From assembly GCA_032622095.1 (NCBI GenBank), contig CP136065.1:20882134-20946133 (forward strand): DNA of 64,000 nt, written 5' to 3'. Position 1 is the stretch's first letter, and each line of letters opens with the position of its first letter. Below, in pieces: positions 20,591 to 47,113 of the stretch. Source of the stretch: Siphonodentalium dalli (taxonomy: Eukaryota; Mollusca; Scaphopoda; Gadilida; Siphonodentaliidae). A program made the translations under genes and the position numbers. Below the pieces are notes generated by a model. The model was not told the DNA's origin. It saw only the letters and a program-made list of their open reading frames with translations, and did no database searches.

Positions 20591-21904
20591 GACGTTGTTC
20601 GATACAATATAATGATTGGACCGTCGTTCGATACAATATAATGAGTGGACAGTCGTTCGATACAATATAATGAGTGGACAGTCGTTCGATACTATATAAT
20701 GCTTGAACCGTCGTTCGGTACAATATAATGATTGGACCGTCGTTCGATACAATATAATGATTGGACCGTCGTTCGATACAATATAATGAGTGGACAGTCG
20801 TTCGATACAATATAATGATTGGACAGTCGTTCGATACAATATAATGATTGGACAGTCGTTCGATACAATGTAATGAGTGGACCGTCGTTCGATACAATAT
20901 AATGATTGGACAGTCGTTCGATACAATGTAATGAGTGGACCGTCGTTCGATACAATATAAAATTGGACAGTCGTTCGATACAATGTAATGAGTGGACCGT
21001 CGTTCGATACAATATAATGATTGGACAGTCGTTCGATACAATGTAATGAGTGGACCGTCGTTCGATACAATATAATGATTGGACAGTCGTTCGATACAAT
21101 ATAATGAGTGGACAGTCGTTCGATACAATATAATGATTGGACTGTCGTTCGATACAATATAATGAGTGGACAGTCGTTCGATACAATATAATGATTGGAC
21201 AGTCGTTCGATACAAAGTAATGAGTGGACCGTCGTTCGATACAATATAATGATTGGACAGTCGTTCGATACAATATAATGATTGGACAGTCGTTCGATAC
21301 AATATAATGATTGGACAGTCGTTCGATACAATGTAATGAGTGGACCGTCGTTCGATACAATATAATGATTGGACAGTCGTTCGATATAATATAATAGTTG
21401 GACAGTCGTTCGATATAATATAATGATTGGACCGTCGTTCGATACTATATAATGATTGGACAGTCGTTCGATACAATATAATGAGTGGACAGTCGTTCGA
21501 TATAATATAATGGTTGGACAGTCGTTCGATACTATATAATGAGTGGACCGTCGTTCGATACAATATAATGATTGGACAGTCGTTCGATACAATATAATGA
21601 GTGGACAGTCGTTCGATACAATATAATGATTGGACAGTCGTTCGATACAATGTAATGAGTGGACCGTCGTTTGATACAATATAATGAGTGGACCGTCGTT
21701 CGATACAATATAATGAGTGGACCGTCGTTCGATACAATATAATGAGTGGACCGTCGTTCGATACAATATAATGATTGGACCGTCGTTCGATAAAATATAA
21801 TGATTGGACCGTCGTTCGATACAATATAATGATTGGACAGTCGTTCGATACAATATAATGATTGGACAGTCGTTCGATACAATATAATGAGTGGACCGTC
21901 GTTG
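20591..21904. repeat. 29-bp minisatellite, about 45 units
   Basis: The unit is 'gtcgttcgatacaatataat' followed by 'gattggacc', with recurring variants ga/gt in 'g[at]tgga' and a terminal a/c. Because 29 is not a multiple of three and the unit has no stop on the minus strand, all three minus frames stay open for hundreds of codons. The resulting long ORFs are artefacts of the repeat. Confidence 0.95.
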
Positions 21905-24242: not shown

Positions 24243-26230
24243 TCAAAGAACACTCAAGAAATATATATATATTTTTTTGTAGTACATGAAATCCAAGACG
24301 AATTGTAGAAGGTCATATTTCACCAGCAATGGACTAGCTTCTGCCACAAAGCCCGATAGTTTTCTTTCAAAGAAAAAGTGTTGGTGCAGCTTCAGCACAA
24401 AGATTTCGAGATGTGTCTGGTGGCCCCGTGTGAGATGAATGATGTTTGCAATGAATAGCAGTTTTTGGTGTGAAGTTCCTTCTCGGTTGGAAGAAGTCCC
24501 ATACAACTGAGTGCAACGTTAGTGCTGGTTCTAACGGGGAAAGTTTGGCAGTGCTTTACACAAGAGCGTAACCCTTTTTCCAGTGTTTGAAGAGCTGATG
24601 TGTTTCCCAGTGGAAACTCACCGTCATATAGTTCTCTGGGAAGAACCACATATTTAATCAGTCTTGACATGGTTGTTGGTGTGCACGATTTAAGTGTCTC
24701 TTTGCCAACTAAGGAGAAGTAAGTGCGGCGTAACTTGTCTGATATTGTGTCAGCTCGCATTGTGGCGGTTGAAGATTTTGTCTGCAGGATCCCGAGATGA
24801 GTACATTCCGTGGTCTCCGTTATTATAGTCCCACCAAGGCTCCATGATCTATGACCGGAATAGCGTTGACTAACAGCCCCATTAAATACCACAACTTGAC
24901 CTTTCGAAGGGGAGAACACAAAACGCCATTTTCTGCAATAGTCATGACAGATGTGTAGCATTGCATCAAGTCCCCGTTTCGTCAATGACATGATAGCGAT
25001 ATCATCCGCGGTGGTAGGCGCCGCGCACGGAATTCCAGTCACCTATAGGCCTATTCTAGTGGATGAGAGTTCTTTTAGCAGCTCTATGTAGACCAGATAG
25101 ACAAAAGTAGAGCTGACGGCTCCTTGTCGAGTGCCTTGTCGTATATCCAAAGGTTCAGATATACATCCGTTGAACAGTACTGGCTAATATACTCCGTGTG
25201 CATATCACAAATTAATTTAAGCAGGTTCCCCTTTACTCCCAGCTGATGCAGTTTCCACAGAAGTCCGGAATGACAAACCTTATCGAAGGCTTTTTGTGAG
25301 TCTAAAACACACGTGTATACACGGGAACCAGTCTTTTGCGAAGCTGATTCCTTCTTGCAAGATGAATGAAGTCACGGAACAGATTACACCTTTTCACGGG
25401 AATGTACATCAAAGATAAGATACCGTTGTATAGCTCACACAGGATTTTGAGGAAGGGCTGACTGCAGTAAATGATGTGTTGCACCATGCCACTGAATGAG
25501 AACGCACCTTGTCATTATTCACAAGTTTCCAGAAAGAGGTTTGGTCGTGTGACGCGAAGCGTTCGATGTCATCAAAAACACTCTGTTGTTGTCTCTCTGT
25601 TGTATGTCTATTGCCCGCTATCCTCGACTGAGCACACACATGGAGGTATTGGAGATCTCCAAGAAATTTTGTGAATATAGCTGACCGATCAGTATGACTA
25701 TACGTGGACATGTGAATGAAGGCGAATCACTTAAACGTATATGGAGGTCACTCATGGCTATGACGTAACCAGTATTCTACGAAACATGTAATACAATTAT
25801 CCATATTCATCAAACACTGCTTGTAAAAGTCATCATCGCGCGTGGTGCTTGGCACGTAAGCTTGAATTATTATCAGGTTCACATCTCCGAGTCTGAATTG
25901 TGCTGCAATAGTTCTACTGTCATCTGTTTCTATGCTGGTGCTGGTGCATAGACTAGCCAACTCGCGGCGCATCAAAATAGCTACTCCGTCCCGACGAATG
26001 GACGATGTGCCTGTAGAGGTAGTGATATGTCATCCGGGTTTCGCAACAGAGACATATTGTCCAGACAGTGAATCAAGGAATGGGAGATTTTGCTCGTCCA
26101 ACCAATGTTCAGATATTCCTATGACATCAAACGTGTTCAAGTGCAGTAGTTCAGAGAGGTAAATCGATGCCGTCTTGGCTATACAGTGGCGTTCACAGGA
26201 GCTTAAATTGCATATTTGTGTCAGCCATCA
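24243..26230 (-). pseudogene. Non-LTR retrotransposon (LINE) EN-RT relic
   Basis: Minus-strand fragments in the right order. An APE-type endonuclease piece (25975-25748) includes 'LGDVNLIIIQAYVPSTTRDD'. A linker with 'FWKLVNN' follows (25711-25409). Next is RT sequence at about 25320-25205 reading 'VLDSQKAFDKVCHSGLLWKL'. RT with the active-site context 'TADDIAIM' and 'CRKWRFVFSPSKGQVVVFN' lies at 25042-24392, with a C-terminal tail to about 24243. The frame is broken several times (for example near 25140 and 25050), so it is dead. The clade is not certain. Upstream minus-strand ORFs at 27.8-28.9 kb could be its ORF1. Confidence 0.75.
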
Positions 26231-28947: not shown

Positions 28948-31630
28948 TAATTATTATACTGTAAACATATTTTTTTTGGTTTATATGATTGTTTTGTTTT
29001 ATTTTTAATTAGGTAAAATGATGTATGTACAGATTGATAATTACAATGTGTTCTTGGTGGGCCGCTCCTGGCCTCATGAAGAAACCGCAGAGCTGCAAGC
29101 GGGCCGTACATATGTAGGTATATGTCAGGCCTGAACTCGATGAGAGCTAGGATGACCACTTACGGGTCTGAAGATCCCTTGCACCCAACCCCGAGCTAAG
29201 TGCTGGGTCGGTTTTTATGCCGGGACCCGCTCGGTATGTGTTGTTGGGTGAGTGGAATGTGTTAGACACAAGCGCTAGTTTCTGTAAGGGAATGTTACGA
29301 CATGAGCAGTTAGTTGGTTTAGAGGAGATAATTATTCGATGGCTTATACTACGGTCACCAAAATGGTATCTACACCGCCCGAGGACATTCATCAGCGCCC
29401 AAGGAGCCATCTAGGACGTGAGCCCGCTAGCCTATGTTTTAGTTTTGGTGTTAGTCGGTATAGTGGTGCACATGATACCAATATATCGGTGAATACATTT
29501 GCAGCGCATCGTGCCGATTGTATAGTCGCGTTTTTCGGTCGATGTTTCGGAATGTCCAGTTTTGTTAGTGGTTTAAGGTAGCTTTGCCTTGGTTGATGGG
29601 TAGTTATTTGAGGACTTGCATTACTACAGGAGGGTGTGGCCAATTCACTGTGATATCATGCCGATGATCAGTACGTACCAAAGAGCCCTTTGAAACATAA
29701 TTCACAATTACCTGATGGGGCGCTGAAATGTGCTTTCGATTACTGGAACAAGTTGATCTGAAATGTGCTTTGTGTTAGTCCGCGTAGCCTGATCGACCTC
29801 GCGTAAAAGTAATTAGCGTTTGCTGAGGAGTAAATTCCTCAGAATAAGTTCGGTTGTGAGACTGGAGTTACTAATTCTGGTTAATGTCAGGTCAGCGAGT
29901 TCTATGAGCCTCTGTTTTATGTATGGGATGTCAGCAGCTAAATGGAGGACCCGAATGGGGGTGGGACGTATTTCGGAAAGGGCTATTCTAAGTGCTGTGT
30001 TTTGTGCCAACTGCATTTTGAGTAGGTTGGCTTTATTGCATTTTGAAGTAATTATTGCCCCATATTCCATGACTGGGAGAATGAATATATAATTTGATTA
30101 GGGTGGTTGGGTTGACCCCCCCACCCTGTGCCCCGAAGTCTCGTTAGGAGTGCGGTTATTTGTAAAGCTTTAGTTGAAATGTTCTTTATATGCTTGTTGA
30201 GTGTGAAGTGTTCGTCTAGTGTGAATCCTAATAAAGTTGCTTCTTTGTTTTGTTCTATTGGTTGTTAAATAGTGTAAGTTTTGGCTTTGAGCTGTAAGTT
30301 TGGTTCCCAAATACTACCAATTGTGTTTTATTTGCATTAAGTTTTATTCTCCATTTGGAACACCATTTTTCAAGTTCTGTGAGTTTTTTTTGTAGTCTAA
30401 CTTCAATTAGTTTATTTCCTTTTGCTAGTGTCCATATGCCAATGTCGTCTGCAAATTGTGATGCTTGTACACGGTGTGTAGGATCTATTTGTATATCGTT
30501 TACGTAGATTAAAAAAAGGAGAGGACTTAAGACTGACCCTGGGGGGTACCAGCTTTAAGATTTACTTTTTCGGAGATTTCATCATTTATCTTTACGGCGA
30601 TGTTTCTGTGTGTTAAGAACGATGAGAGAAGTCTGACTATGTTTGTGGTAGTTCTGTGCGTGTTCTGAGTTTGTATCTGAGCCCATTGTGCCATACAGAA
30701 TCGAAAGCTTTTTCAACATCGAGGTATATAGCCTCAGTTTCCCAGCCCCTACTTATTGCCGTTCTAATATCTTCTGTTAATCTATATACGTGTTCTATGC
30801 CCTCTTTCCCACTTCTATAAGCCCGTTGATATTTGTTGACAAAATTAATGCTCTCTAAGTGAGTCTTTATACGGCTGCTAATGATTCTTTCAAAAAGTTT
30901 GCCAGTGCATTTTAATAAGCTGATGGGCCTATAGTTGGTTGGGATTGTATGGTCCTTGCCGGGTTTAGGAATCATTGTCCCGATTACAGTCTTCCATGTT
31001 TTGGGAAAGTAACCCAGTCTCAGGCATTTATTATATAGGTTAGTAAGACGAATAAATAGCTCGTTCGGCGCTTGTTTTATTACGCCGTACGTGATATCGT
31101 CGTCGCCGGGTCCTTTGTTAGGTTTGCCCCGGTTCAGATTTCTTCTCACCTCTCAATCGATTTCGGCCATTAGGAGATCATCGTCACCCGGTTCGACTTT
31201 GTCTTTTAGCAGTGGTGCGAAGAGTTCTGAGTTGTCATCGATATAATCGTTGACATAACGTTTAAAACGTTTGTTAAATATATCGCCTTCATGCGTGATG
31301 TGGATTTTGCGTAGACTCTCTGCGAAGATTTGAGCTTTTTCTTGGTCATTTTCAGATTTTTTGCCATTTTGGACAGTTATCTGATGTTGCGTTACTCCCT
31401 TGGCCCGTTAGCGTTTTGAATGTTTGCCAGAATTTTCTATCCATGTTTTGGTCATTAAGACTGGCTGTTATTGTTTTTCCAGGACTCGTTTTTTTCTTCT
31501 TTGATTTTTTGTTTTACTTGTCTATTGAGATTGTTATACAGTGTTTTATATTCATTGTCATTGAGGTTCTTCGCTGAGAGTCTCCATATTTTCCTTTTGA
31601 ACCTTATAAGATCCAGTGTTTCCCTGGACA
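28915..31630 (-). pseudogene. Jockey/CR1-like LINE relic
   Basis: Minus-strand RT at 31149-30637 has 'KPNKGPGDDDITYGVIKQAP', 'TMIPKPGKDHTIPTNYRPIS' and 'DVEKAFDSVWHNGL', all standard RT blocks. Further blocks follow in shifted frames: around 30550 'GTPQGSVLSP'-like and around 30460 'FADDI'-like. The tail at 30070-29813 includes 'KMQLAQNTALRIAL'. The 3' region runs to a (TA)n tract at about 28918-28942. The frame is disrupted (a shift near 30545 and others), so it is inactive. The 5' end lies near 31.5-31.6 kb; EN is not recognised. Confidence 0.75.
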
Positions 31631-33258: not shown

Positions 33259-33718
33259 TGTGACCCGCCATATCAAATCCAGTCGTTAGTCGGGATTTTT
33301 TGACCCTGTGCCAATGCATTCTCTTATATATGGGAGTCGACCATAGGTCGCCTCGCATATATAAGAGAATGCATTGGCCTAACAATTTTTTACAATTTTA
33401 ATAATTTGTTCTTGTATTCTTTAACAATTTGATAATTTCACCCATACAGAACCCCAGACAAACATGAGCAGACGACACTCTTCTATATGCTTCTATATAT
33501 GTGTGGGGCTCCCTGCAGGGTAATGGATGTTTTTTATTTTATGTCCTAAAAATTATCAGAAACATTTATTTTAAAAAAATGATAAAAAATTGTTAGGCCA
33601 ATGCATTCTCTTATATATGCGAGGCGACATATGGTCGACTCGCATATATAAGAGAATGCATTGGCACAGGGTAAAAAAAAATCCCGACTTACGACTGGAT
33701 TTGATATGGCGGGTCACA
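33259..33718. mobile_element. Foldback MITE, 460 bp, 7-bp target duplication
   Basis: TGTGACCCGCCATATCAAAT at the left and its complement at the right form ~45-bp terminal arms, flanked by TATTATA on both sides (33252-33258 and 33719-33725). Inside each arm sits a palindromic module ('gccaatgcattctcttatat' … and reverse) identical in type to the one in the piggyBac-like MITE at 13687-14048. Non-coding. Its right end is only about 30 bp from the splice donor of the C-type-lectin exon. Confidence 0.8.
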
Positions 33719-33986: not shown

Positions 33987-34643
33987 CTGGGGAAAAGGTA
34001 AACGGTTGCCATTATAAGATGCCCCGGTATTATCCATATCAAATATTCTCGGATAAATACCTCCTAGTACAATGGGACCAAAGCCGGTCTATATCTATAC
34101 ATATACCAAGATATCCATGGACCACTGAGACACCTTTGTATGGGGATATACCTGGGTAAAACCCTGATATACACACAAGTAAATAAGACCTCTGGGGCCG
34201 TATTCACCAAGTGGGTGTATTTTAGAAACCAGGTAGTTCATTTTGGTAGCTGCTGAACGCACACGGTATCTTTTTTATATAGCGTTAACGACACACTGTA
34301 ACAGAACGATGTGCGCCCCTGCCTGATCACGCCCCTGTAAACTATTGCATCAGTTCCAACAATTACGATGCATGAATAACAGGGTGGGATTGTTAGTCGG
34401 ACAGCCGTACTTAGCACGATGACGAGATCACGCGATGCTGATTCTAGCTAGCTCTCAGGAAGGTCCCCAGTCGAACCAGTGCAGAGGTCTAAAAGTTATT
34501 AGTTGTTTTGGTACACTGCACTGGTCATGAGATACGAAAGCTATACTAAAGCTAACTTTAGTGACGAGCCGTTGACAACTAGTTGTCAAGCCTGGCCAGT
34601 AACATCGTCACATGATTTTGAAAAGTAGGTTACCACTTTTACA

Positions 34644-34679
34644 TATAAGCACTGAGGTTTTACCCATCAGTGTTCAGTT
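34644..34679 (+). promoter_or_regulatory. LTR core promoter: TATA plus initiator
   Basis: TATAAG at 34644-34649 stands about 31 bp before the A of TCAGTT (34674-34679), which matches the arthropod-type initiator consensus. Transcription is predicted to start at 34676. The same pair is in the 3' LTR (46860 and 46890). Confidence 0.7.
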
Positions 34680-34788
34680 GACTGAGTCCTCCTATGAGTA
34701 CCGCCCTGGGAAAGACTTACTGATCCAGAAGAGCCTGAGAATGCTAGCATCAGCTGACCTATCTTGAGAAGCGAAATTATGCTCTAGA

Positions 34789-34794
34789 AATAAA
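34789..34794 (+). terminator. LTR poly(A) signal AATAAA
   Basis: AATAAA about 113 bp after the predicted start site, which would set the end of R near 34810. The copy that acts in 3' processing is at 47005-47010. Confidence 0.7.
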
Positions 34795-34904
34795 CAGATC
34801 TACGGTTCCATGAGTTGTCGTCATACCAAAAATAATACACAACGTGAAGTCCGGTCGGAACGTCGTATCTCCAACATACGGGGTTCTGCCACATAGAGAT
34901 CAAC

Positions 34905-34920
34905 TGGTGCCGTGAGCAGG
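34905..34920 (+). other. Primer-binding site, tRNA-His-like
   Basis: TGGTGCCGTGAGCAGG begins 11 nt after the LTR end. TGGTGCCGTGA is complementary to the conserved 3' end of metazoan tRNA-His (…TCACGGCACCA). Compared from memory with insect tRNA-His, 15 of 16 bases fit. The 11-nt spacing from the LTR is larger than the usual 0-8. Confidence 0.6.
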
Positions 34921-34945
34921 ATCAACCACGACGACAATTTCAAGG

Positions 34946-34961
34946 ATGAAGATAGGTGAGT
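34946..34961 (+). promoter_or_regulatory. Leader ATG and 5' splice donor
   Basis: An ATG at 34946 is followed after ten coding bases by a perfect donor, AG|GTGAGT, cut at 34955/34956. In unspliced RNA this ATG meets a stop within eight codons. Splicing to the acceptor at 42716 would place it in frame with env. This is the arrangement known for subgenomic env RNAs of errantiviruses and retroviruses. Confidence 0.75.
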
Positions 34962-35054
34962 ACACCTAAGACCCTAGAATCTGACGTTTTCTAGCCCACC
35001 TTTTCTAAAACACCATGGCTCATAAAAACGAATTTCTGACACCCTGGGTTCTAA

Positions 35055-35423
35055 AAATCAAAATCTAACATCCTGGCTTCCCAAATTCAAGACGAATTAA
35101 AACCAGATTTATTGGCTAAAATTCATGCAGCATTAAAAACCGTTCCGTCCTGGCCTGACGAAAATTATGACGATTTTCTGCCGGACTGTTTTGAATTGGA
35201 AAAGCTAACGTATGATGAATATTGCGCCATTTTAAAACCACAAATATATCAATTAGAAAATACACGGTACGGGACCGTCTCCGAAATTAAAATAATTCGA
35301 AAATGTATACTATTTAGAGACTGGGTCCACGTCATAGAATTCTCCGTGTGGATTAATAATAACAACATTTGTCACACGTTTGAAAGTGGTCGATGTATAA
35401 AGTATCCGTTTAAAACGAGTTAA
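35055..35423 (+). CDS. Open frame of unknown function upstream of gag
   Basis: 123 codons are open from 35055 to a TAA at 35421-35423, 14 nt before the gag ATG, with no in-frame ATG near the start. The peptide is not low-complexity: 'DELKPDLLAKIHAALKTVPS', 'LTYDEYCAILKPQIYQLENT', 'CILFRDWVHVIEFSVWINNN'. I recognise no family. A possible acceptor AG at 35090-35091 would join the leader donor at 34955 in the correct phase for this frame, which would supply an ATG. It may therefore be a small accessory protein from a spliced RNA, or a chance ORF in a long leader. Confidence 0.4.
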   Translation, partial: KSKSNILASQIQDELKPDLLAKIHAALKTVPSWPDENYDDFLPDCFELEKLTYDEYCAILKPQIYQLENTRYGTVSEIKIIRKCILFRDWVHVIEFSVWINNNNICHTFESGRCIKYPFKTS

Positions 35424-35437
35424 AGATATTTCAAATA

Positions 35438-36595
35438 ATGGCTCAAATTGTTGATGATATACAAGGTGCGCATTTGAACGTACCCTTACCCGCGGACGAA
35501 GCAAATATGGACGCACCTGTTCAACAACAACAACCGCAAAATCCTCAACCACAACCCGGGCAACAAGGCGACTTAAATGCCGCCTTACATTTGTTGAGAC
35601 AAAACGAGCAAATCGGGCTCGTCTTGGCAGGAATCCAGCAGCAATTTGCTGGATTCAATTTGAATCTGGGACAACAAACCAATGCGATTCGTACGCAAAC
35701 CGCCGCGCAAAGCGCGTTGACTTTATCTACAATGGTAGAAAAGTACGAGGGACAACCTCGGAAATTAAGGGAATTCTTAAAACAAATAGACCGGTATTGT
35801 AATATACTCGGTACACCAGAAGAAGAAAGATGGTTAGTCGCACTTCAGCGTACAGGCGGCCCTGTAGCTGAATTTCTCACGCGATATCATCACGAAAATC
35901 AAGGGGTCACGTGGAACCAAATAAAACGCGAACTAACGATTAGATTCGCGGAAATAACAGACAAACATCAGGCTCTTGCAAAAGTAAGAAGCTTCAAACA
36001 AAAAGCAGGGGAAAATATACATATATATGTAGAGGCAGTTCGCCAATTAGCAGTGGATGCTTTCGAGTATGAAGAATTAGCCATCCCTGCAATACAACGT
36101 CAGTTGGTACAGTATTTCACTGACGGGTTAAATGACACAAACCTCAAGATGAAAATCTTGAGAGAAGATCCACAAACATTGGATCAAGCAGCTTTCGTAG
36201 CTGTGGAGGAATTTAATATCCTTAAACGATTTTCAATGCGTTTCAATCGCACACCGACGAATGAAACCCCATCGGGACAAGAACCGATGGATGTAAATAG
36301 GGTCAAACCAAAAATAGTGCAGTGTAATTACTGTCACAAATTGGGCCACAAATATGAAGCTTGTAGACTCCGCCCAAGACAAAATACACATGTTCACACA
36401 ATAAATAACTCTCCTCAACCGCCAACCAAATTTTGTCGAAGCTGTTGGAAGCTAACATATCATGATACTCGTGAATGTTGGTACAAGGACCACTTGTACG
36501 ATTATGGGACAACGAACCCAAACTTTAAACGCCGAATGCGTAACGAGTTGGACGAGCAGCAAAACAGAAAACCGAATCCCTCTTTAAACGAGTAG
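35438..36595 (+). CDS. gag: Gag structural polyprotein
   Basis: 385 codons, ATG in good context (AATAATGG). The N-terminal region is Gln/Pro-rich (about 28-45). A helical capsid-like core spans roughly 90-270 ('RTGGPVAEFLTRYHHENQ', 'ITDKHQALAKVRSFKQKAGE'), resembling the retrotransposon Gag capsid fold. Two zinc knuckles follow: CX2CX4HX4C from C296 and CX2CX5HX4C from C333. The second has a five-residue rather than four-residue gap. Gag would assemble particles and package RNA. The last codons overlap the pol frame, with a TTTAAAC heptamer at 36583-36589 just before the TAG. Several short upstream ATGs in the leader imply reinitiation, leaky scanning or internal initiation. Confidence 0.92.
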   Translation: MAQIVDDIQGAHLNVPLPADEANMDAPVQQQQPQNPQPQPGQQGDLNAALHLLRQNEQIGLVLAGIQQQFAGFNLNLGQQTNAIRTQTAAQSALTLSTMVEKYEGQPRKLREFLKQIDRYCNILGTPEEERWLVALQRTGGPVAEFLTRYHHENQGVTWNQIKRELTIRFAEITDKHQALAKVRSFKQKAGENIHIYVEAVRQLAVDAFEYEELAIPAIQRQLVQYFTDGLNDTNLKMKILREDPQTLDQAAFVAVEEFNILKRFSMRFNRTPTNETPSGQEPMDVNRVKPKIVQCNYCHKLGHKYEACRLRPRQNTHVHTINNSPQPPTKFCRSCWKLTYHDTRECWYKDHLYDYGTTNPNFKRRMRNELDEQQNRKPNPSLNE

Positions 36596-39500
36596 AACCT
36601 GTTCGTGACAAGGCGCGCGCGCGGGTTAACCATATTAAACATAAATCAAAGCCTTACCAAACTGTATCCAATAAAGCACTCTATCCAAATTTAACACGTA
36701 AAAATTTACCGTCAACGAATGTAATTCCATTAAATTCGCACAGATTTACTAGAACGTATGACAACCGTTACGATTCACATTGTAAAAACATATCTGGTCA
36801 TGGGAGTACAAAGCATATACACTATGCCAGACCCACAGTAAAAATGATTGACAACGCGCGACCCAACGCCGACCTTCATGTCAAACCGGTGCATCATCAC
36901 TTGCATTCCGAATTGTCATATGCTGATCGAGTAAAATCGAACAAGAAATCATTGGAGAACACAAATAAGTTAAATAAAGTGAAGAATACTTATGTCATGG
37001 GTCACAAGACGCCAAATACAATTGACACTAAACGTGCGGATCCACGAACGCGAAAATTCGACAACCGTGGGTCTAACTCCCATAAACATGTTAAATCACT
37101 GAATAATCCGCATAAAATACATGCGAATCGAGAGAGACACTCCATAAATCCGCGATTCGCCTCGCCATGGGATAATAAAACTGAAAAAGCACAGCAAAAC
37201 TCGAAAAATAGGAGTTTTCAAAAATCATCTATTGAGTGCCCATTTAAGGGACAAAACACTCAGAAACAACCAAATCAAGCCTACAGTAACTTATTACATT
37301 ACGGGAAATCGAAAAATTCACAAAAACAAAAAATTAAAAAATTTCTGTATGATGGCGACCAAAATGGCCAACAAGATGACACAAAATTGAAAAACACAAA
37401 AAATGGAATAAATCAATTTCCAAACAAAAATCTTAGTCCCAAACAACGAATTCCGTATTCTCAAGGTCAAACGAACTCAAACAAGACTGAACATAGTAAT
37501 AAAACTCAAAAACTTAAAAATCAGCCCAATTTTCAAATTTCTTATCCAAACAACAGGTATAGTGTACTGGAACAAGACTATTGTCCTCCAGACTATACAA
37601 ATATACATGTGCCTGATAGTCCAATACCTTCAAGGCCACAACACCGTCGTAAAACAAAGGATTTTATGAAAAATCAAAATTCCAACTCCAAGTTCAAACT
37701 TGTTGAGACTAATGATAAATACAATGTACTTAAAATGAAATTACCCAAACCGAATGTACGGTACACAAAACACAATAAACCTAGTAAAACTGCTAAAATA
37801 GTTGAAAAGTCTCATAAAACAAATGATGTTGCAAATCAACTTAAAGATAGAAAAGAATGGTTAAACCAAGTTAAAAAGTTAATTAAAGCAAGCAAGCAAA
37901 CAGATACTCAAATGAAACATACCATACATGGTCGTGGAGTCTCTCATAACCCCAAATCAAATAAAAATGGAAAAACTTCTGAAAAATTCAAAAATGAAAC
38001 ATCCAAAGAAGTGAATGTTACAGGTACGCCTGTGCCATCCTCAATATTGCTTCAAATAGGCAAACAACGTGTTCGTGCCCTTTGTGATACTGGAGCACAG
38101 TGCTCCATAATTAGCAACTGTTTATATAAACAAATCACAAATAGACCCAAACTTAACAGAAGGAAGGATAATTTGACTTCAGTCACAGGAAGTGAACTCA
38201 AATGTATCGGTCAAATTGAATTACCTTTCAAAGTTAGTGGGTTAAAGATGAAACATGATTTTTATATCGTGGAAAATATGACCCGCAATATAATCTTAGG
38301 TACTGACTGGATGGTTCAAAACTGTGTGCGAATATTCTTCGACTTACAATGTTTGAAGATTAATCATCGCATCGTTCCAATGGTACCTGACTTAGAGATT
38401 GCAAGCCTTGTTAGACTTAAGAAGGAAGCACTTCTCAAGCCCCAGAGTTGTCTCTTAACTTGTGCTCACATCGTTGGCGGATGTGGCTTATTCGACACTA
38501 ACCTGTTACAAGTTAGTTCTCTGGATCATGGGTTCTTGTCTGAACAACCCGGCTTGAACTTAAGTGATGCAGTCATTAATGTTAATGACCTTACTTCTTT
38601 AGGCAGCATCCCTGTATACCTTGTCAATGATACTGACAAGTTCTATAAACTTAGAAAGGGATGTGTCTTAGGCAAGGTTGAACCTCTTGAGACAGCTCAG
38701 ATTTCTGAAGTCTCCCAGTCACCCACTCAGTCATTTTCCCGTGACACCAAGCCATCAAAAATTAATTATGCTGAGGTTGATGTGCCCTCAGATAAGAAAC
38801 AAATAATCACAGATCTTCTTAAAAGTAATGAAGGTCTCTTTGCTGCAACTGATGCAGACCTAACCTTTACTGACACAGTAAAGATGAAAATAGATACACA
38901 AGGTAATGCACCCATCAAGTGCCAACCATACCGTGTTCCATTGGCTAAAAAGCAGATCATGGACCAGGCAATTGATGATATGCTTGAATCAGATATCATT
39001 ACCCCTGCTAGATCACCATGGTCCTTTCCTTGCTTACTTGTGGGCAAGAAAGATGGTTCATCAAGATTTTGTGTTGACTTTCGTAAGCTCAATGCTATTA
39101 CTAAACCAATTACTTGGCCACTCCCGGTCATTGATGACATATTGAATTCTCTAAATGGCTCTAAATACCTGACAGCGCTTGATCTTAAGTCAGGCTACTG
39201 GCAAATCTTATTAGATGAAGATGCCCGTGAAAAGTCTACATTTACTTGCCATAGAGGGACCTATTCTTTCAAGGTAATGAGTTTCGGTCTTTCAAATGCC
39301 CCAAGTTTGTTTCAAGAGCTCATGTCCGTCGTCTTAGATGGCCTACAAGATCGCTCATTAGCCTACTTAGACGATATTTTGATATTCTCGCCGACGGAGG
39401 CTCAACATCGTAAAGACATTCAAACTGTCTTCGATCGCCTTCGACAACATAAATTGAAACTCAAATTGAAAAAGTGTAAGTTTTTCCAAACTGAGACCAA

Positions 39501-42048
39501 GTACTTAGGTTTTGTTATTAACTCAGATGGTGTCAAACCCGACCTTGATAAAGTCAAGGCCATTCGAGATGTTCCACCACCTACCAATATTAAAGGAGTT
39601 AGATCATTTATGGGAATGACATCATACTATCGTCGTTTCATTCCTGGTTTTAGCGCCATCGCTACACCTCTGATTAATCTCACTAAAAAGTATTCAAAGT
39701 TTAAATGGACTGATGAATGCCAAAGAAGCTTTGATACCATGAAATCAAAACTAACTGGAGTATCTTATCTTGCATACCCAGACGTCAACAAACCATATTG
39801 GTTATATACTGATGCCTCTGACAATTGTATCGGGGCATGTCTTACTCAACCTTATGAAGACCCAAGTCTTGATCCCACCATCGCTGGTGAATTGGAAAGA
39901 CCAATCTATTTCCTCTCACACAAACTTAGTGATACTCAACGCCGCTGGGCCACAATTGAAAAGGAATGCTTCGCCATTCACTATGCCCTTCGAAAGTTTG
40001 ATCATTACTTATCAAATGCTCAGTTTACCATTCGTACTGACCACAAACCTCTTGAACATCTTCTTAGTGCCAATAAGAAACTTCAGAATTGGGCACTGGA
40101 TATTGCTGGCTATAATTGCCAGATTGAATACATACCAGGTCCTTCGAATCTCTGTGCAGACTGGCTCTCTCGTCCACCTGCACCTTCTCCGTTAAATCCT
40201 CATACTGATACTGATTCCTCAGATGGTGAAGACATTCCTGAGATCAGTGATAAGGCTTATCAAGTGACAGCCATAAATTCTAACAAATTTGAACCCAAAG
40301 AATTTGCTAAGTGCATAATTCCTCCAGATGACTTACCTCGTCAATCTCAACTCACACATGTTGATTTCAACATGACTCTAGAACAAGATAAAGACGCTGA
40401 GATAGTAGAGCTTAAGAAACAATATAATTGCAACAATCCACCCCCCTCCATTTGGGAAAAATACATACTTATCAATGACATCTTGCATTATATTAGTCAT
40501 GCCAAGGATGACCCTGTTCTTCGCATGTGCATTCCATCTCATTTACAAGCTCACATTATGCAACAGTACCACGATGATAATGGGCATCTAGGTACCGATA
40601 AAATGTTTTCCTCAATCAAATCCAAGTATTATTGGAAGAATCTTTACAAAGATATATATGCATATTGTGAAAAATGCATTCCCTGCCAAAGTCGAAAACT
40701 TCAGAAAAAGAAATCACCTCTTCAAGAAACAGACATAGCACCTTACCCCTTCGCTAAAATTGGTCTCGATTTAAGTGGACCCTACCCTAAGACGTTAAGT
40801 GGGAACGTCTACATCGTCACTTTCATCGACCTCTATAGTGGTTGGCCAGAAAGTTTTGCAGTACCAGACAAATCTGCCTCCACTATTGCCAATTTGTTAC
40901 TCAGTGAGATTTTTCCTCGTTTCTCAGCACCGCTGGAACTGGTAACTGATAATGGCACCGAGAATATTAATCAAGTCATGCATGATGTCTTAGAAGAACT
41001 TCGTATTCATCACGTCACTTCTTCTTATTATCATCCTCAGAGTAACGCCAAAGTTGAACGCGTTCACCGGACTATGCATGACATTCTTTCCAAGTTGCTT
41101 AAGAATCAACTTGAGACATGGGATCTGTATCTTCCCCAAACACTGGCTAGTATACGATTCAGTGTGAATGAATCTACTAAATACTCGCCATTCTACCTGC
41201 TATATCAACGCGACCCCATTTTACCAATTGACAATTTGCTCCGCCCTCATCACAAGTATGTGGGTGAAGACTTTCACAAGGTCGCACTTCAAGAAATGCA
41301 TCGTTCATTTCGTTTGATGCATCGTCATCTACAGTCTGCTAAAAAGCGACAGAAAACCTACCAAGATAAGAAGGCGACCGATAACTCTTTTGAAGTGGGC
41401 GACCCTGTCTATTATAAAGACAATCGCACCAAAAATAAGTTAGCCCTTAAGTGGCAACCATATTTTCGCGTCATTGAAAAGCGGTCCCCTGTTTCATACC
41501 GCATCCGTAATCAACTTACAGGTCGTGTGACTAAGAGTCATGCTGACCTCCTCCGCAGAGCTGCCATAGATTGGACTCTGCCTGTCAAAACTGACAAAGA
41601 AGCTGCTGTCAGAGCGCAGCGCTATGTTGTACCCCCCTCCTCATCTGATTCTGACTCCGACTCCGAGGATAACATACCTCTTCAGCGTCTTCGTACAATG
41701 AAACGCCAGGTCAGATCAGATTCGGAGGACGAAGACGATATACCCCTTAACGAGCTTCGCACCAAGCTGCGTGCTCGTAAACTAGCTCAAGAGGCTCAGA
41801 ATGATTATAATGCCTCTACTGAAGAGTACAGTGATGATATGCACAATGCATATAACGCATCTACCGACGATTATGATGTACCTCCCAATCTGGGATTACA
41901 AGACATCACCATGGCTGCAGACATTGAATCTGTTCATGCCAAATTATCAACAGCAGAGGACGACTCAGCTGAATCTCAGTTTGAACCTGGTCGCCTGCTT
42001 ACCATTGAACCCCTGACAGTTATCCCCCTTCTAGAGACTGATCTCTAA
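36544..42048 (+). CDS. pol: Pol polyprotein: protease, RT, RNase H, integrase
   Basis: Open in the -1 frame from 36544, presumably made as a Gag-Pol frameshift product; the first ATG is 36844 and residue numbers are from there. 1-390: very basic Asn/Lys/Gln-rich spacer. 415-418: DTGA protease site, with 'ILGTDWM' after it. RT: 'RFCVDFRKLN', 'LTALDLKSGYWQ', YLDD at 841-844. RNase H: 'YTDASDN' and 'IRTDHKPL'. Integrase: zinc motif H1243, H1248, C1275, C1278; catalytic D1309, D1369, E1405 (D-35-E); a GPY/F-like 'WQPYFRVIEKRSPVSYRI'. The C-terminal ~150 residues are acidic, with two copies of an SED…IPL..LRT motif. No stops or shifts; catalytic residues are all present. Confidence 0.95.
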   Translation, partial: RVGRAAKQKTESLFKRVEPVRDKARARVNHIKHKSKPYQTVSNKALYPNLTRKNLPSTNVIPLNSHRFTRTYDNRYDSHCKNISGHGSTKHIHYARPTVKMIDNARPNADLHVKPVHHHLHSELSYADRVKSNKKSLENTNKLNKVKNTYVMGHKTPNTIDTKRADPRTRKFDNRGSNSHKHVKSLNNPHKIHANRERHSINPRFASPWDNKTEKAQQNSKNRSFQKSSIECPFKGQNTQKQPNQAYSNLLHYGKSKNSQKQKIKKFLYDGDQNGQQDDTKLKNTKNGINQFPNKNLSPKQRIPYSQGQTNSNKTEHSNKTQKLKNQPNFQISYPNNRYSVLEQDYCPPDYTNIHVPDSPIPSRPQHRRKTKDFMKNQNSNSKFKLVETNDKYNVLKMKLPKPNVRYTKHNKPSKTAKIVEKSHKTNDVANQLKDRKEWLNQVKKLIKASKQTDTQMKHTIHGRGVSHNPKSNKNGKTSEKFKNETSKEVNVTGTPVPSSILLQIGKQRVRALCDTGAQCSIISNCLYKQITNRPKLNRRKDNLTSVTGSELKCIGQIELPFKVSGLKMKHDFYIVENMTRNIILGTDWMVQNCVRIFFDLQCLKINHRIVPMVPDLEIASLVRLKKEALLKPQSCLLTCAHIVGGCGLFDTNLLQVSSLDHGFLSEQPGLNLSDAVINVNDLTSLGSIPVYLVNDTDKFYKLRKGCVLGKVEPLETAQISEVSQSPTQSFSRDTKPSKINYAEVDVPSDKKQIITDLLKSNEGLFAATDADLTFTDTVKMKIDTQGNAPIKCQPYRVPLAKKQIMDQAIDDMLESDIITPARSPWSFPCLLVGKKDGSSRFCVDFRKLNAITKPITWPLPVIDDILNSLNGSKYLTALDLKSGYWQILLDEDAREKSTFTCHRGTYSFKVMSFGLSNAPSLFQELMSVVLDGLQDRSLAYLDDILIFSPTEAQHRKDIQTVFDRLRQHKLKLKLKKCKFFQTETKYLGFVINSDGVKPDLDKVKAIRDVPPPTNIKGVRSFMGMTSYYRRFIPGFSAIATPLINLTKKYSKFKWTDECQRSFDTMKSKLTGVSYLAYPDVNKPYWLYTDASDNCIGACLTQPYEDPSLDPTIAGELERPIYFLSHKLSDTQRRWATIEKECFAIHYALRKFDHYLSNAQFTIRTDHKPLEHLLSANKKLQNWALDIAGYNCQIEYIPGPSNLCADWLSRPPAPSPLNPHTDTDSSDGEDIPEISDKAYQVTAINSNKFEPKEFAKCIIPPDDLPRQSQLTHVDFNMTLEQDKDAEIVELKKQYNCNNPPPSIWEKYILINDILHYISHAKDDPVLRMCIPSHLQAHIMQQYHDDNGHLGTDKMFSSIKSKYYWKNLYKDIYAYCEKCIPCQSRKLQKKKSPLQETDIAPYPFAKIGLDLSGPYPKTLSGNVYIVTFIDLYSGWPESFAVPDKSASTIANLLLSEIFPRFSAPLELVTDNGTENINQVMHDVLEELRIHHVTSSYYHPQSNAKVERVHRTMHDILSKLLKNQLETWDLYLPQTLASIRFSVNESTKYSPFYLLYQRDPILPIDNLLRPHHKYVGEDFHKVALQEMHRSFRLMHRHLQSAKKRQKTYQDKKATDNSFEVGDPVYYKDNRTKNKLALKWQPYFRVIEKRSPVSYRIRNQLTGRVTKSHADLLRRAAIDWTLPVKTDKEAAVRAQRYVVPPSSSDSDSDSEDNIPLQRLRTMKRQVRSDSEDEDDIPLNELRTKLRARKLAQEAQNDYNASTEEYSDDMHNAYNASTDDYDVPPNLGLQDITMAADIESVHAKLSTAEDDSAESQFEPGRLLTIEPLTVIPLLETDL
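36583..36613 (+). promoter_or_regulatory. -1 ribosomal frameshift signal
   Basis: In the gag frame, T TTA AAC (36583-36589) fits the X XXY YYZ rule exactly and is the same heptamer used by coronaviruses. It lies two codons before the gag stop, and the pol frame is -1 and open from 36544. Eight bases downstream, CCTGT (36598-36602) can pair with ACAAGG (36608-36613, one bulge), and a (GC)5 tract follows that could extend the structure. Confidence 0.8.
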
Positions 42049-42714
42049 ATATCTGACTACACCGTCAAATAGTCTGTTGTTCCCTTTTCCATTAATGGAT
42101 ATGGATTAGCCGAAATCACATGCATTTCTACTGCATGTCCTTGATTATTTACAAGGTCCCATTAATGGCCGAGCTTATTCCGCGGTTCGTTTATCCCCGC
42201 TGCTCATTTATTCTTTGCCTTCTTTAGCTCTGCTAAAGAATTCCTTGTTAGGGAGGATTGTGCAGCGTTGACATGTGCGACGGCACGGTGTTGACCTGTA
42301 TACGTCTTTGGAAGAATTGACCTGAGTACGTCTGTCACGTACACCTCTTCAGAAGACCTGTCCTCTTTCAAACAAATATTTTTTTTGTCTGAACTCCTCC
42401 CTGTGACTGCAGTCTGATTCCTTCTTTGTAAAAATAGATAGGTGTAAAAGTAAGAAGGGAAATTTGATTTTATTGACTTAACTTTAAATAGTACCATTGC
42501 ACGCCTGAAATTCGCCAATCTAAATAATACCATAGATAGGAATGTTTGAATTAATATTAGTTTTTGGAGAAGTGCACATCTCCAACAACGAGTGTATTTA
42601 AGTTAAGTAACTAGTTACAATTACAAGGATAACAAAGGCAACCAGACACAACAACTAGACATACCCCAACCCTAACCTACGAGATCACTCTAATCATGTG
42701 ACTCTTCTATTTTC
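42049..42714 (+). other. Pol-env intergenic segment
   Basis: About 670 bp without a plus-strand ORF. It ends in a good branch/pyrimidine/acceptor set ('ctctaat', then 'cttctattttcag'). The minus strand carries a 109-codon open frame (42533-42204) ending near 42204; it has no domain I recognise and may be chance. Confidence 0.5.
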
Positions 42715-42716
42715 AG
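42715..42716 (+). promoter_or_regulatory. env 3' splice acceptor
   Basis: AG at 42715-42716 follows 'cttctattttc', with CTAAT/CTAAC branch-like motifs 20-45 bases upstream. Joining to the leader donor at 34955 preserves the env frame. Confidence 0.75.
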
Positions 42717-44815
42717 CAATACTAGTACTCTGTGTGACCTTAATCTCACTAGAATTAGGTCAAACGAATAGCATTATTGTGACGCGACATAATGTGATTT
42801 TCCAAAAACTTAAAGATATATATATGACCAATGCAGATTGGACAATAGGTTTCGTAGTAAACTTAGAACCATTTCAAAACTACTTGAAATCCCTGTCAAG
42901 ACAAATAAAGATAGCTCGAAAAGAGTTGGACCGAACAAAGTTAAAAACAATACAAACAAACGGACATGAGTCGTTTAACTTGACAGGTACAGCTAAACAA
43001 TTCGACGATCTCTTCGCGAGTTTCAGTGAAAACTTAGAGATACTGAACACCGAATACTTAGAAGTTGTTTCGCAATTTGTCGAATACAAAACGCTTCACG
43101 ATGACTCGCCGCATAAGATTAAAAGGTCGCTGCTCCCCTTCATAGGAGAAGGATTATCCTGGCTGTTTGGAACAGTCAGTGAGAGCGACCTCAATAATAT
43201 TAATAATAATATTAATAAATTGGCTAATAATCAACGAAAAATTGAGCACACTCTCAAAGAAAGTTTTAGCCTAATGGACGTCTCCCGGAATTACATCCGT
43301 GAAAATAGAATGAAAACTAATCAGTTGGTTGAAACAGTTAAATATATTCAGCATGTACTCACTGAGGCATTCAACAAGCAATCACACAAATTAACGACAT
43401 TGGAATACTACGCTAATTTGCATAATCATATTGACCTAAGAATTACAGAGATAAATCAAATGATTACTGCTGCTAGATTTCATGTAGAACACATGCATAC
43501 GCAAATAAGTATCTTAACTACCAAACGAATTGCTCCAAGTGTGGTTCGTATTAATACCTTACGACGAGTGTTATCTGACTTGGACAAACATCTTCCAGAT
43601 CATCTTAAATTACCATTTGATCCCAACACTGAATTGTGGAAGTATTATCAAAACTTTAAGTGTTCTACTCTGTTGACAAACAGTCGACTAATTGTACTAG
43701 TGAAAATTCCTCTGATCAACATAAGGAACAAATTCGAACTCTTTAAGATTCATTCGTTCCCATACACACCTAATAACAAATCTTTATCTTCGGATTTAAG
43801 ACAAATGATTGCTGAATATCGGTTTGACCATAAACACTTAATAATAAATGCTGGTCGTACTCAATTCCTAACATTACCCGATAACTCGCTCTGCTTAATG
43901 AATCCATTGCCATTCTGTCCTTTTGATGGTGTTATTCGAACGCTTTACAACGATAAACCATGCCCTATCGCATTACTCATGAATGACACGAGGTCAATAA
44001 AAGACCAGTGCATTATAGAAGTGCAACCGAGCGTTAAACTACCATATGTCAGAAATGTAAACACTGGACTCTTTGTCATTAGCTTAGCTAAACCAATAAC
44101 TTTCTCGGTAATGTGTAAAGATTATGTAAGTTCTCAAGAAGTGACATTATTTCCGCCTATTGGATTATTAACTTTACAACCTACGTGTATCGCTTCTGCC
44201 CCGAATGTGAAAATTGAGAGTCACTTCTCAGGTGACAACTCTCAGCTTATAAATGCGTTTGATAACGAGATTCTTCCTAAATTTAATCTTTCCAAGTTCT
44301 ACCTTTGGAAACCTGTCTTGGACAGAATTGATCGTTTTAGGAATTTTACATTACCAATCGCATTAAAAGGTGTTACTAAAATACCTTTACATCAGTTAAT
44401 TGATTCATTGGACAAACTGGAAAGCATAACACCCCTTAATTCGGAAATTCCAAAATATGTTTATGTAATTATAATTGTGGCAATGTTAGCTTCGGTGCTT
44501 GCCCTCTGTCGTTACCGGAATAAAGTTATGTCCCTCTTATGCAAACATAAACGCCGCAATAGGCGCCATAACGTCAGATTTGGGTCACTAGGTGTACGTG
44601 AAGACGCAGGTACCTTGAACGAAGAACCAACCAGGTCTTCATCACTTGCATCAGAAACCAAGCGATCAGCCGAATCACCATCCACTCCTGTAACTATCAA
44701 ACGTACCAAAATTCACCTAACTGAAAATGATATTGCCTATTTACAGCAGCACCAACTCATGGAACTGCCAGAACTGATTACCACTGACGAAGCTTCTTCA
44801 ACATCTACCTTATAA
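42717..44815 (+). CDS. env: Envelope fusion glycoprotein, baculovirus-F/errantivirus type (main exon)
   Basis: The frame is open from upstream of the acceptor to a TAA at 44813-44815, but there is no ATG near its start, so the leader exon (34946-34955) most likely supplies it; splicing would yield a short hydrophobic N-terminal signal segment. Numbered from 42698: a furin-type KIKR ends at R143, followed by 'SLLPFIGEGLSWLFGTVSES', the conserved fusion-peptide region of this family. A heptad-like Asn-rich helix follows (about 163-185). N-glycosylation sequons include FNLT, MNDT, FNLS and RNFT. A transmembrane segment lies at about 587-604 ('VYVIIIVAMLASVLALC'), then a basic cytoplasmic tail of ~100 residues. 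Length and order fit a complete membrane fusion protein; function is inferred. Confidence 0.88.
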
Positions 44816-44819
44816 GAAA

Positions 44820-45458
44820 ATGTCCAAAATCAACGTTGTCATCTTCGGATCCAGCCATCTTCAACGACTGGCTCAACATTTACTATCAACGGAGAAGAAG
44901 ATGACGCTATATCCCAACAACTTCCGCAGAGCATTGGATTTAGTCGACCCCAATATTAAAGTAACTATGTATGGTATTAGTGGATTGCGACTCCACGACC
45001 TACAAGCGTCAACCATCAGCCAACTACAACAACTACGTCCGTCCATAATAATAATAATGTGTGGAGGCAATGACCTCTCCTCTAGGTCAGTAGAAGATAC
45101 ATACTACGACCTAACCCAACTAATCCACAAACTACAAGACCCAACTCCTACCAAAATAATTGTCTGCGAGCTACTTCAGAGAAGAAAAGTCCGACTTCCA
45201 GGTCCAGAAAAGAAGACCAGTACTCGCAGTAGCGATGTCAATCAATATAATGACCGTGTGAGTCAATTAAACCAATTACTTCGGAGCGGGTTACATAAAA
45301 ATTACCCAGCAGCATATTACTGGCCGCTTCGAAGACTATCCACCTTCGTTGAGGAATCAGCCTTGAATCATGATAAAGTTCACCTCAACGAAGAAGGAAA
45401 TATCCGACTATCCCGGAATATAAAACATGCGATTGTGTTCGCATTAACACATTCATAA
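44820..45458 (+). CDS. SGNH/GDSL-hydrolase-like accessory protein
   Basis: 212 codons from an ATG four bases after the env stop, in another frame. The hallmark SGNH blocks occur in order: block I 'VVIFGSSHLQRL' (Ser12 as candidate nucleophile, GSS instead of GDS), block II 'YGISGLRLHDL' (Gly55), block III 'IIIIMCGGNDLS' (Asn84), block V 'DKVHLNEEG' (Asp185, His188). The family hydrolyses esters, often acetyl or lipid esters. No signal peptide, so probably cytoplasmic or nuclear. SGNH domains are known in ORF1 of CR1-type LINEs and in Ngaro/DIRS-type elements; one downstream of env in a gypsy element is unfamiliar to me. Expression could be by reinitiation after env or by splicing to an AG at 44815-44816. 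The intact frame in a young copy suggests it is maintained by selection. Confidence 0.82.
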   Translation: MSKINVVIFGSSHLQRLAQHLLSTEKKMTLYPNNFRRALDLVDPNIKVTMYGISGLRLHDLQASTISQLQQLRPSIIIIMCGGNDLSSRSVEDTYYDLTQLIHKLQDPTPTKIIVCELLQRRKVRLPGPEKKTSTRSSDVNQYNDRVSQLNQLLRSGLHKNYPAAYYWPLRRLSTFVEESALNHDKVHLNEEGNIRLSRNIKHAIVFALTHS

Positions 45459-46500
45459 CCATTAGAACCGCTGGATTGGATCAAGAATTTAACCACTTGC
45501 GCTTGGGGATTCTTGAGTACGTAGTCACGCACGTCTCCGCCAAGACCTGTGCTTGGACTTGTATCCGGTTCAGCTGAATCATGTTCATTACAGAAGAGGA
45601 TTAGATGAAGAGTATATACAATAAATATATGACATTCCCTGAATATGATGTCAAGAAAGCAACAAGTGTATATAAAATAAATATATGACATTCCCTGAAT
45701 ATGATGTCAAGAAAGCAACAAGTGTATATAAAATAAATATATGACATTCCACGAAGACGATGAAAAAAAGAAACCTCGTGATTTAAAACACGAACTTATT
45801 GTGATGTGATATAATTCCAAATACGGTATTGTATACCATGATATTATGTGCATGCTCAAATTAATTCGTTGCATGCCATAGGATTATATAAAGACCACGG
45901 TCTAAGGCTAAAAATTAATCAGATATAATAAGTAGATTAGCTCATTATAGCTGGATACGTGAGATAGGTAGTATCATAGTTGTTCCATAAATTATAACAG
46001 ACTTTAAAGTCTTCAACATATAAACACAACTTATGGTTTACTTTTGAATCAGGCTATCATGCCAATTAGATGTTCTGCACAGCCAGATTTTTAATGGAGT
46101 AAAAATATAATTTTATCCATACATCTAAACCCTGCTAACATGCAAAGGTCATATCCTCTTTTCAACAAGCAGGTACACACATGTGTTCTCATTTAACTAT
46201 AGTTAACTCTGCTTAGTAACTGGATGGAGATGTACTACTCACGTATCCTGCCCATATTTTCCTTTTTCAGCAATTGAAAAAACATATATATATATATTAA
46301 CAATAGTAGTCTTGCCTTAGACCTTGGCCGTCATTGTGCTCAGTCTGTCCTTCAATGGCAACCAGAAAGGTTGCCTTTACACTAAAGGATAATAAATCCC
46401 AATCATAACAATAACTTAAACTAAAACTAACAGTGTGCCATCTTTCTGTTAACGATTCCTGCTAGGATGATTTCGCATCAGCCTATGCGAAATCCTCTTG
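45459..46500 (+). other. Element 3' untranslated region
   Basis: No plus-strand ORF. It contains the three 56-bp repeats at 45612-45750, an AT dinucleotide tract near 46285, and a short hairpin near 46462-46495 ('ggatgatttcgcat' against 'atgcgaaatcc'). Confidence 0.7.
45612..45750 (+). repeat. Three 56-bp direct repeats with AATAAA
   Basis: Units begin at 45612, 45668 and 45724 ('gtatata.aataaatatatg' then 'acattccctgaatatgatgt' …); the third is partial. Each contains AATAAA or AAATAAA. They are internal to the element, downstream of the SGNH ORF, and nearly identical to each other. Confidence 0.9.
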
Positions 46501-46510
46501 GTATGGGAGA
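46501..46510 (+). other. Polypurine tract candidate
   Basis: 'gtatgggaga' immediately upstream of the 3' LTR (2 nt spacer), the expected location of the plus-strand primer. It is short and interrupted by pyrimidines. Confidence 0.5.
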
Positions 46511-46512
46511 TA

Positions 46513-47109
46513 TGTAACAGAACGATGTGCGCCCCTGCCTGATCACGCCCCTGTAAACTATTGCATCAGTTCCAACAATTACGATGCATGAATAACAGGG
46601 TGGGATTGTTAGTCGGACAGCCGTACTTAGCACGATGACGAGATCACGCGATGCTGATTCTAGCTAGCTCTCAGGAAGGTCCCCAGTCGAACCAGTGCAG
46701 AGGTCTAAAAGTTATTAGTTGTTTTGGTACACTGCACTGGTCATGAGATACGAAAGCTATACTAAAGCTAACTTTAGTGACGAGCCGTTGACAACTAGTT
46801 GTCAAGCCTGGCCAGTAACATCGTCACATGATTTTGAAAAGTAGGTTACCACTTTTACATATAAGCACTGAGGTTTTACCCATCAGTGTTCAGTTGACTG
46901 AGTCCTCCTATGAGTACCGCCCTGGGAAAGACTTACTGATCCAGAAGAGCCTGAGAATGCTAGCATCAGCTGACCTATCTTGAGAAGCGAAATTATGCTC
47001 TAGAAATAAACAGATCTACGGTTCCATGAGTTGTCGTCATACCAAAAATAATACACAACGTGAAGTCCGGTCGGAACGTCGTATCTCCAACATACGGGGT
47101 TCTGCCACA
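46513..47109 (+). repeat. 3' LTR
   Basis: 597 bp, TGTAACAG…CTGCCACA, no difference from the 5' LTR seen by eye. TATAAG 46860-46865, TCAGTT 46890-46895, AATAAA 47005-47010. Followed by ACAC, the target duplication. Confidence 0.97.
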
Positions 47110-47113
47110 ACAC

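Follow-up and report, generated by a model that had tools for sequence, protein, structure and literature searches.

Enzymes of the SGNH superfamily cleave acyl or acetyl esters. The recurrence of such esterases in long interspersed elements (LINEs), Ngaro elements and elements of rotifers has long been unexplained. According to the available part of Rodriguez et al. (2017, PMC5408684), LINEs of the CR1, L2/ZfL2 and RTEX types encode SGNH esterases, and the Vesta long terminal repeat (LTR) retrotransposons of bdelloid rotifers carry a GDSL open reading frame (ORF), ORF3, in place of env; these authors proposed that such ORFs help to penetrate host membranes. In the accessible portions of other papers, an SGNH ORF is placed after the tyrosine recombinase (YR) of Ngaro retrotransposons (PMC9210276), GDSL is reported in giant Penelope-like Terminons (PMC6431247), and env-carrying gypsy elements with the order gag-pol-env are described as known in many animal phyla (cited in PMC13172572). 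Here, we describe a Ty3/gypsy element with a separate SGNH gene after env, located in a 64,000-nucleotide stretch of the genome of the scaphopod Siphonodentalium dalli (contig CP136065.1, positions 20,882,134 to 20,946,133, forward strand; hereafter the window). On balance, we favor a reading in which a recently active element would carry an SGNH ester hydrolase as its fourth gene (gag-pol-env-SGNH), this gene would belong to a pool exchanged among retroelements, including distant gypsy elements with an F-type env and apparently env-less DIRS/Ngaro-like elements, and its product would act on esters within the cell.

The gene following env encodes an SGNH hydrolase

The ORF at 44820-45458 (+ strand) is intact from ATG to TAA, comprises 212 codons and starts 4 nt after the env stop codon. 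The initial annotation, made from the sequence alone, had described a complete ORF directly after env with the four SGNH blocks (Ser12, Gly55, Asn84 and Asp185-x-x-His188), and its coordinates, length and motif positions were all correct. The product matched the Pfam families Lipase_GDSL_2 (E 2.2e-12; 48.2 bits, cut-off 32.9) and Lipase_GDSL (E 7.3e-09), and had no match in NCBIfam. We read 20 further SGNH loci, 28-48% identical and picked from the listed genome matches, and the SGNH frame was open in all of them. The motif residues were invariant in an alignment of 11 families (A1, comprising the window protein and 10 of these 20 loci), each member of which matched Lipase_GDSL_2 at E 0.001 or better, and the five catalytic-set positions (Ser, Gly, Asn, Asp, His) were kept in 21/21 aligned rows, down to 27% identity. 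A regular expression for the four blocks, purpose-written for this check and applied to the six frames of the window, matched this ORF alone and gave no match in 20 base shuffles.

AlphaFold2, provided with the window protein and one homologue, predicted a flavodoxin-like alpha/beta/alpha fold (pLDDT 70, pTM 0.73), and the top Foldseek and VIA rows for the predicted structure were esterases, lipases and scaffolds of the SGNH fold. Profile search and structure prediction both bear out the family assignment proposed initially. A single-sequence search of the protein database found no relative and a profile search found one, of 190 residues (P0001); viral contigs contained no SGNH relative, either by single protein or by profile. 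We regard it as virtually certain that 44820-45458 encodes a member of the SGNH (GDSL-type) hydrolase family, and its residues predict that it is catalytically competent.

The gene lies inside a recently inserted gypsy element

The element spans positions 34297-47109 of the window, with the gene order gag-pol-env-SGNH and the following features.

34293-34296 (no strand): target-site duplication, left copy, 4 bp, ACAC
34297-34893 (+): 5' LTR, 597 bp, TG...CA ends, identical to the 3' LTR
34946-34957 (+): leader ATG and candidate 5' splice site; the intron would begin at 34956, as judged from the sequence
35438-36595 (+): gag, 385 aa (Ty3_capsid, E 8e-09)
36844-42048 (+): pol, 1734 aa from the first ATG, with protease, reverse transcriptase (RT), RNase H and integrase (Pfam)
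42704-42716 (+): candidate 3' splice site for the env mRNA, a pyrimidine-rich stretch with an AG ending at 42716
42698-44815 (+): env, 705-aa open frame (Baculo_F, E 1.3e-17)
44820-45458 (+): SGNH hydrolase gene, 212 aa, with Ser12, Gly55, Asn84, Asp185 and His188
45608-45775 (+): 56-nt tandem repeat, about 3 units, between the SGNH gene and the 3' LTR
46513-47109 (+): 3' LTR, 597 bp, identical to the 5' LTR
47110-47113 (no strand): target-site duplication, right copy, 4 bp, ACAC

The order protease-RT-RNase H-integrase between LTRs and the Ty3-type capsid identify a Ty3/gypsy element (Metaviridae), and the F-type env gene 3' of pol is an Errantivirus-like trait. In env, a basic cleavage-like site is followed by LPFIG, and residues 582-608 form a hydrophobic stretch, a transmembrane segment as judged by hydropathy. 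No dUTPase or chromodomain was among the Pfam matches of the window pol at E values up to 10, pol had no match in a phage collection, and no tRNA was found in the window. Since the LTRs and the ACAC duplication lie on both flanks, the SGNH gene is inside the element; since the two LTRs are identical, the insertion is recent. The Pfam matches, the LTRs, the env match and the kept catalytic residues together support the earlier view that an SGNH-type gene stands by itself at the 3' side of a Ty3/gypsy element with env.

We searched the genome (2.23 Gb, 9 contigs) with the SGNH protein (at least 153 matches; 150 of 515 candidates scored), with env (63 of 743 candidates scored) and with integrase (118 of 5024); all counts are lower bounds. 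Among the SGNH matches listed, 33 were at least 95% identical to the window protein, 32 of them without a stop. By their coordinates, at least 30 of the 33 have env directly upstream, at least 28 have an integrase within 6 kb and at least 26 have both, and the distance from the env stop to the SGNH start was 4 nt in 30/30 near copies read. Of the 33 integrase rows listed for the window family, 14, including the window's own, score as identical, which indicates that the family has been recently active. Two copies of the family, at C8:135969895 and C8:135982138, share their orientation and are separated by 12243 bp. This distance nearly matches the 12216 bp from LTR to LTR in the window and points to a head-to-tail pair with one LTR in common.

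The SGNH gene has most likely been exchanged between retroelements

By pol, the window element is closest to two families (69 and 67% identity over about 770 residues), whose env proteins are 44 and 46% identical to that of the window. The SGNH gene was absent from the 2 kb following the end of env in 4/4 copies (two per family), and, as judged by eye, none of the 20 env matches from these two families adjoined an SGNH gene among the matches listed. One copy of a family further removed from the window element (52% in pol, 58% in integrase) lacked the SGNH gene in 6 kb, roughly half of which followed pol. In a six-row pol tree, the window element grouped with the two SGNH-less sisters (93/87), the sisters grouped together (100/99) and the third family stood outside. 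Because a single gain is more parsimonious than two losses, the window lineage most likely acquired the SGNH gene after splitting from its closest sisters. As a side observation, L075 and the family with 58% integrase identity represent a related gypsy family with more than 60 integrase matches listed, the majority of which score alike; the env search listed none at the copy read, and L075 likewise gave no env match.

A second gypsy lineage also carries the gene. The SGNH proteins of L031, L033 and L035 are 47, 44 and 43% identical to the window protein, and an F-type env precedes each. Baculo_F scored above its cut-off in L051, L053 and L065 of this lineage; L051 and L053 contain broken env pieces, and L052, which is 46% identical to these pieces, matched the window env in BLASTP with an E value of 6e-06. 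Pol, read for two of the L031, L033 and L035 families, has an integrase that is 28-30% identical to the window's; L035 had no pol match in the stretch read. In L065, which pairs with L052 (C3:260.4 Mb), the integrase is followed by a chromodomain (Chromo, E 7e-06), then by the F-type env and SGNH; the other second-lineage pol that was scanned, L064 (paired with L051), had no chromodomain match. The SGNH gene lies about 0.4-1.5 kb after the last env-like ORF in this lineage, with acceptor-like sites shortly before it (L031, L033, L035).

We considered the possibility that the gene was ancestral to the env-bearing gypsy elements of this genome and was lost by the window's sisters. The presence of an F-type env in both SGNH-bearing gypsy lineages would fit such vertical descent, yet the identities do not follow it: two families of the second lineage share 55% of their integrase and 48% of their SGNH residues, and between this lineage and the window integrase identity drops to 28-30% whereas SGNH identity stays at 43-47%, about the same as between families of the second lineage (43-48%). 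The placement also differs, 4 nt after env in one case and 0.4-1.5 kb after an env-like ORF with acceptor-like sites in the other, which fits separate arrivals. We therefore consider vertical descent quite unlikely.

The same SGNH family is also found next to genes of another kind. Downstream of the SGNH genes of L040, L042, L048, L049 and L050 lie gag-like ORFs that are mutually related (pairwise E 4e-06 to 7e-79), and RT follows the gag-like ORF where we read on (RVT_1, E 1.5e-13 in L040 and 9.6e-14 in L049). One ORF of L040 has a weak match to a tyrosine-recombinase N-terminal domain (PF13495, E 0.02). The L040 protein is 47 and 45% identical to those of L031 and L033. In the stretches read, which included 3 kb upstream of these loci as well as sequence downstream, no env match was found at E values up to 1; the same search did detect env in L051 and L053. 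The idea that every SGNH relative sits in an env-bearing element was rejected on account of these loci. They may be DIRS/Ngaro-like (YR-like) elements, a label for which the evidence is weak, since it combines one weak recombinase match, the mutual similarity of the gag-like ORFs and, in part, motifs that we presume to be typical of such elements. Further searches lent no support to this label: 7/7 gag-side ORFs had no Pfam match, and a PDB search with the YR-like ORF was uninformative. Two neighbours were labelled by eye, a LINE-like RT upstream of L049 on the same strand and, on the strand opposite to L050, an actin-like gene. At least four near-identical SGNH ORFs of 225-229 aa (L044-L047) form a further group, and around the one copy read (L045) no gene was recognisable in 3 kb upstream or 2.5 kb downstream.

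The absence of the gene from the sisters and the presence of the same SGNH family in distant gypsy and YR-like elements indicate that it moved between elements, and we consider lateral exchange between element types very likely. What speaks against naming a donor is the SGNH tree, in which the window, second-gypsy and YR-like branches are unordered and carry a long-branch warning. Any direction of transfer would be conjectural, and we propose exchange and no donor.

Selection on the SGNH gene

Between the window gene and those of five other families, synonymous sites are saturated, with a proportion of nonsynonymous differences (pN) of 0.38-0.48. The ratio of nonsynonymous to synonymous substitution rates (dN/dS) was 0.24 between L035 and L038 (about 50 silent and 52 replacement changes) and 0.31 in L084, an older copy of the window family (silent excess, P 0.0003), although this copy carries a stop. 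Over these longer times, the gene is clearly constrained.

Other figures weigh against constraint. The remaining within-family pairs, which differ by 2-25 changes, gave dN/dS values of 0.24-1.13, based on 5-25 changes, or no estimate, and among the other older copies of the window family two had values of 0.63 and 0.67 and had lost Ser12 and Asn84. (A fourth older copy had 0.51.) The 30 youngest copies differ by 23 replacement and 11 silent changes, a pN/pS of 0.62 that is not distinct from neutrality (P 0.14), and one of them (L028) has lost Ser12. The tail of env provides a contrast: changes shared by several copies (24 copies without indel) gave 0.115 (P 2e-06), indicating strong constraint; env-tail singletons, at 0.69, looked neutral. 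Comparison of copies, which had been suggested as a check on the initial annotation, thus supports it on the longer time scales and is not significant for the youngest copies. The near copies alone were rejected as proof of selection, and recent selection remains unproven, there being few changes to count.

The neutral-looking variation and the lost Ser12 in the young copies, together with the sister families that manage without the gene, could also mean that SGNH is a passenger, captured by chance and carried without benefit. We consider this improbable, as the passenger hypothesis sits poorly with the 32 stop-free copies among the 33 listed, with dN/dS values of 0.24 and 0.31 over longer time scales and with the retention of the gene in several diverged families.

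The enzyme may act inside the cell

Env probably obtains its start from a spliced leader, with the ATG at 34946, the donor at 34955/34956 and the acceptor up to 42716, as judged from the sequence; in 3/4 other copies read, a 2-nt difference lies just before the acceptor and the sequence after it is untouched. The window SGNH gene might be translated by re-initiation after env. Its protein has no hydrophobic signal or transmembrane stretch according to hydropathy, no signal predictor having been used.

The enzyme is kept by env-bearing and by apparently env-less elements and shows no secretion signal, from which we infer an intracellular role and regard a task at the outer surface as unlikely. 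Its substrates would be acyl or acetyl esters, most plausibly those of lipids, at membranes that serve the assembly, movement or exit of the particle of Gag and RNA; we put forward this cytosolic membrane-ester role tentatively. Three observations run counter to it or to the expression of the gene. There is no strong splice acceptor just before the window SGNH gene, only mediocre AGs ending at 44654, 44746 and 44749. The SGNH frame of several families extends without a stop beyond the first ATG in the 5' direction, and in L039-L041 this upstream part includes a hydrophobic stretch. L035-L038 have no ATG before the first SGNH block, and with such upstream-open frames or absent ATGs the N-termini of those families, and their lack of a signal, are uncertain.

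The initial annotation had envisaged a role on glycans or lipids during exit or entry. In its surface version, the enzyme would de-acetylate or otherwise edit glycans on receptors or on Env, in the manner of a receptor-destroying esterase. The claim is weakened by the lack of a signal or transmembrane stretch in the window protein and by relatives in elements with no env match around them, and we hold it to be very doubtful. The alternative that had also been mentioned, a role at the RNA level without catalysis, resembling that of the OSK domain or the one suggested for LINE esterases, finds some backing in a weak OSK profile match (E 0.0027, below the cut-off) and in the excess of K/R (28) over D/E (18) in the window protein. 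Conservation of the catalytic residues in all 21 rows would be needless for pure RNA binding, and this explanation appears unlikely.

Carrying the intracellular reading further, the SGNH gene could be a shared, exchangeable module serving one replication step common to env-bearing LTR elements and env-less YR-type elements, with cytosolic cleavage of lipid or acyl esters as an overlooked enhancer of particle assembly or trafficking; we offer this as a speculative possibility. That a single genome has one SGNH family both in two distant gypsy lineages with env and in elements with no env nearby argues for a function independent of cell entry, and the several intact gene families present here make the long-standing question of esterase recurrence testable. 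If the proposal is right, the window lineage would have added an ester-cleaving enzyme to a complete gag-pol-env set and become an endogenous retrovirus-like element of four genes.

Other features of the window

Positions 20597-21903 hold an array in which a 29-bp unit is repeated about 45 times and more than one minus-strand frame lacks stops, a mechanical ORF that does not look like a gene. Two 69-nt repeats (33310-33378 and 33597-33665), 287 bp apart, 90% alike and palindromic by eye, lie about 0.6-1 kb before the 5' LTR and might be the ends of a small DNA transposon. On the minus strand, 24392-25042 and 30637-31149 are ORF fragments that resemble pieces of non-LTR RT by eye.

Comparison with known systems

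The initial annotation knew of no separate 3' SGNH gene in an env-containing gypsy element. For gypsy elements at large such a gene is not without precedent, as a GDSL ORF3 has been published in Vesta of bdelloid rotifers (PMC5408684, available part); for env and SGNH together, we found no example in one LTR element in the open-access literature, a search that does not establish absence from print. What appears to be new here is the joint presence of env and SGNH in one gypsy element, in two distant lineages.

As far as the accessible text of PMC5408684 goes, Vesta and the window element are both gypsy-type LTR elements with a catalytic-looking GDSL/SGNH ORF that is separate, follows pol and has no transmembrane stretch, and in both cases such a gene is also present in another retroelement class. 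They differ in that Vesta has a dUTPase between protease and RT and no env, whereas env and SGNH coexist in the window element, with no dUTPase in the Pfam scan. The esterase of CR1/L2-type LINEs is located upstream of the LINE RT ORF, unlike the window SGNH, a stand-alone 3' gene after env in an LTR element.

With Ngaro elements, as presented in the accessible portion of PMC9210276, the window element shares an SGNH ORF separate from gag, RT and recombinase. Ngaro has a tyrosine recombinase and split direct repeats, with no env described in that portion, whereas the window element has an integrase core and LTRs. The YR-like elements of this genome differ from Ngaro in another respect: in L040/L069/L076 and L049/L073/L077, SGNH lies about 1 kb upstream of the gag-like ORF, and in Ngaro it follows the YR. 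Finally, metazoan env-carrying gypsy elements, in the part available of the source that cites them, have the order gag-pol-env that is also seen in the window element, which adds an SGNH gene after env.
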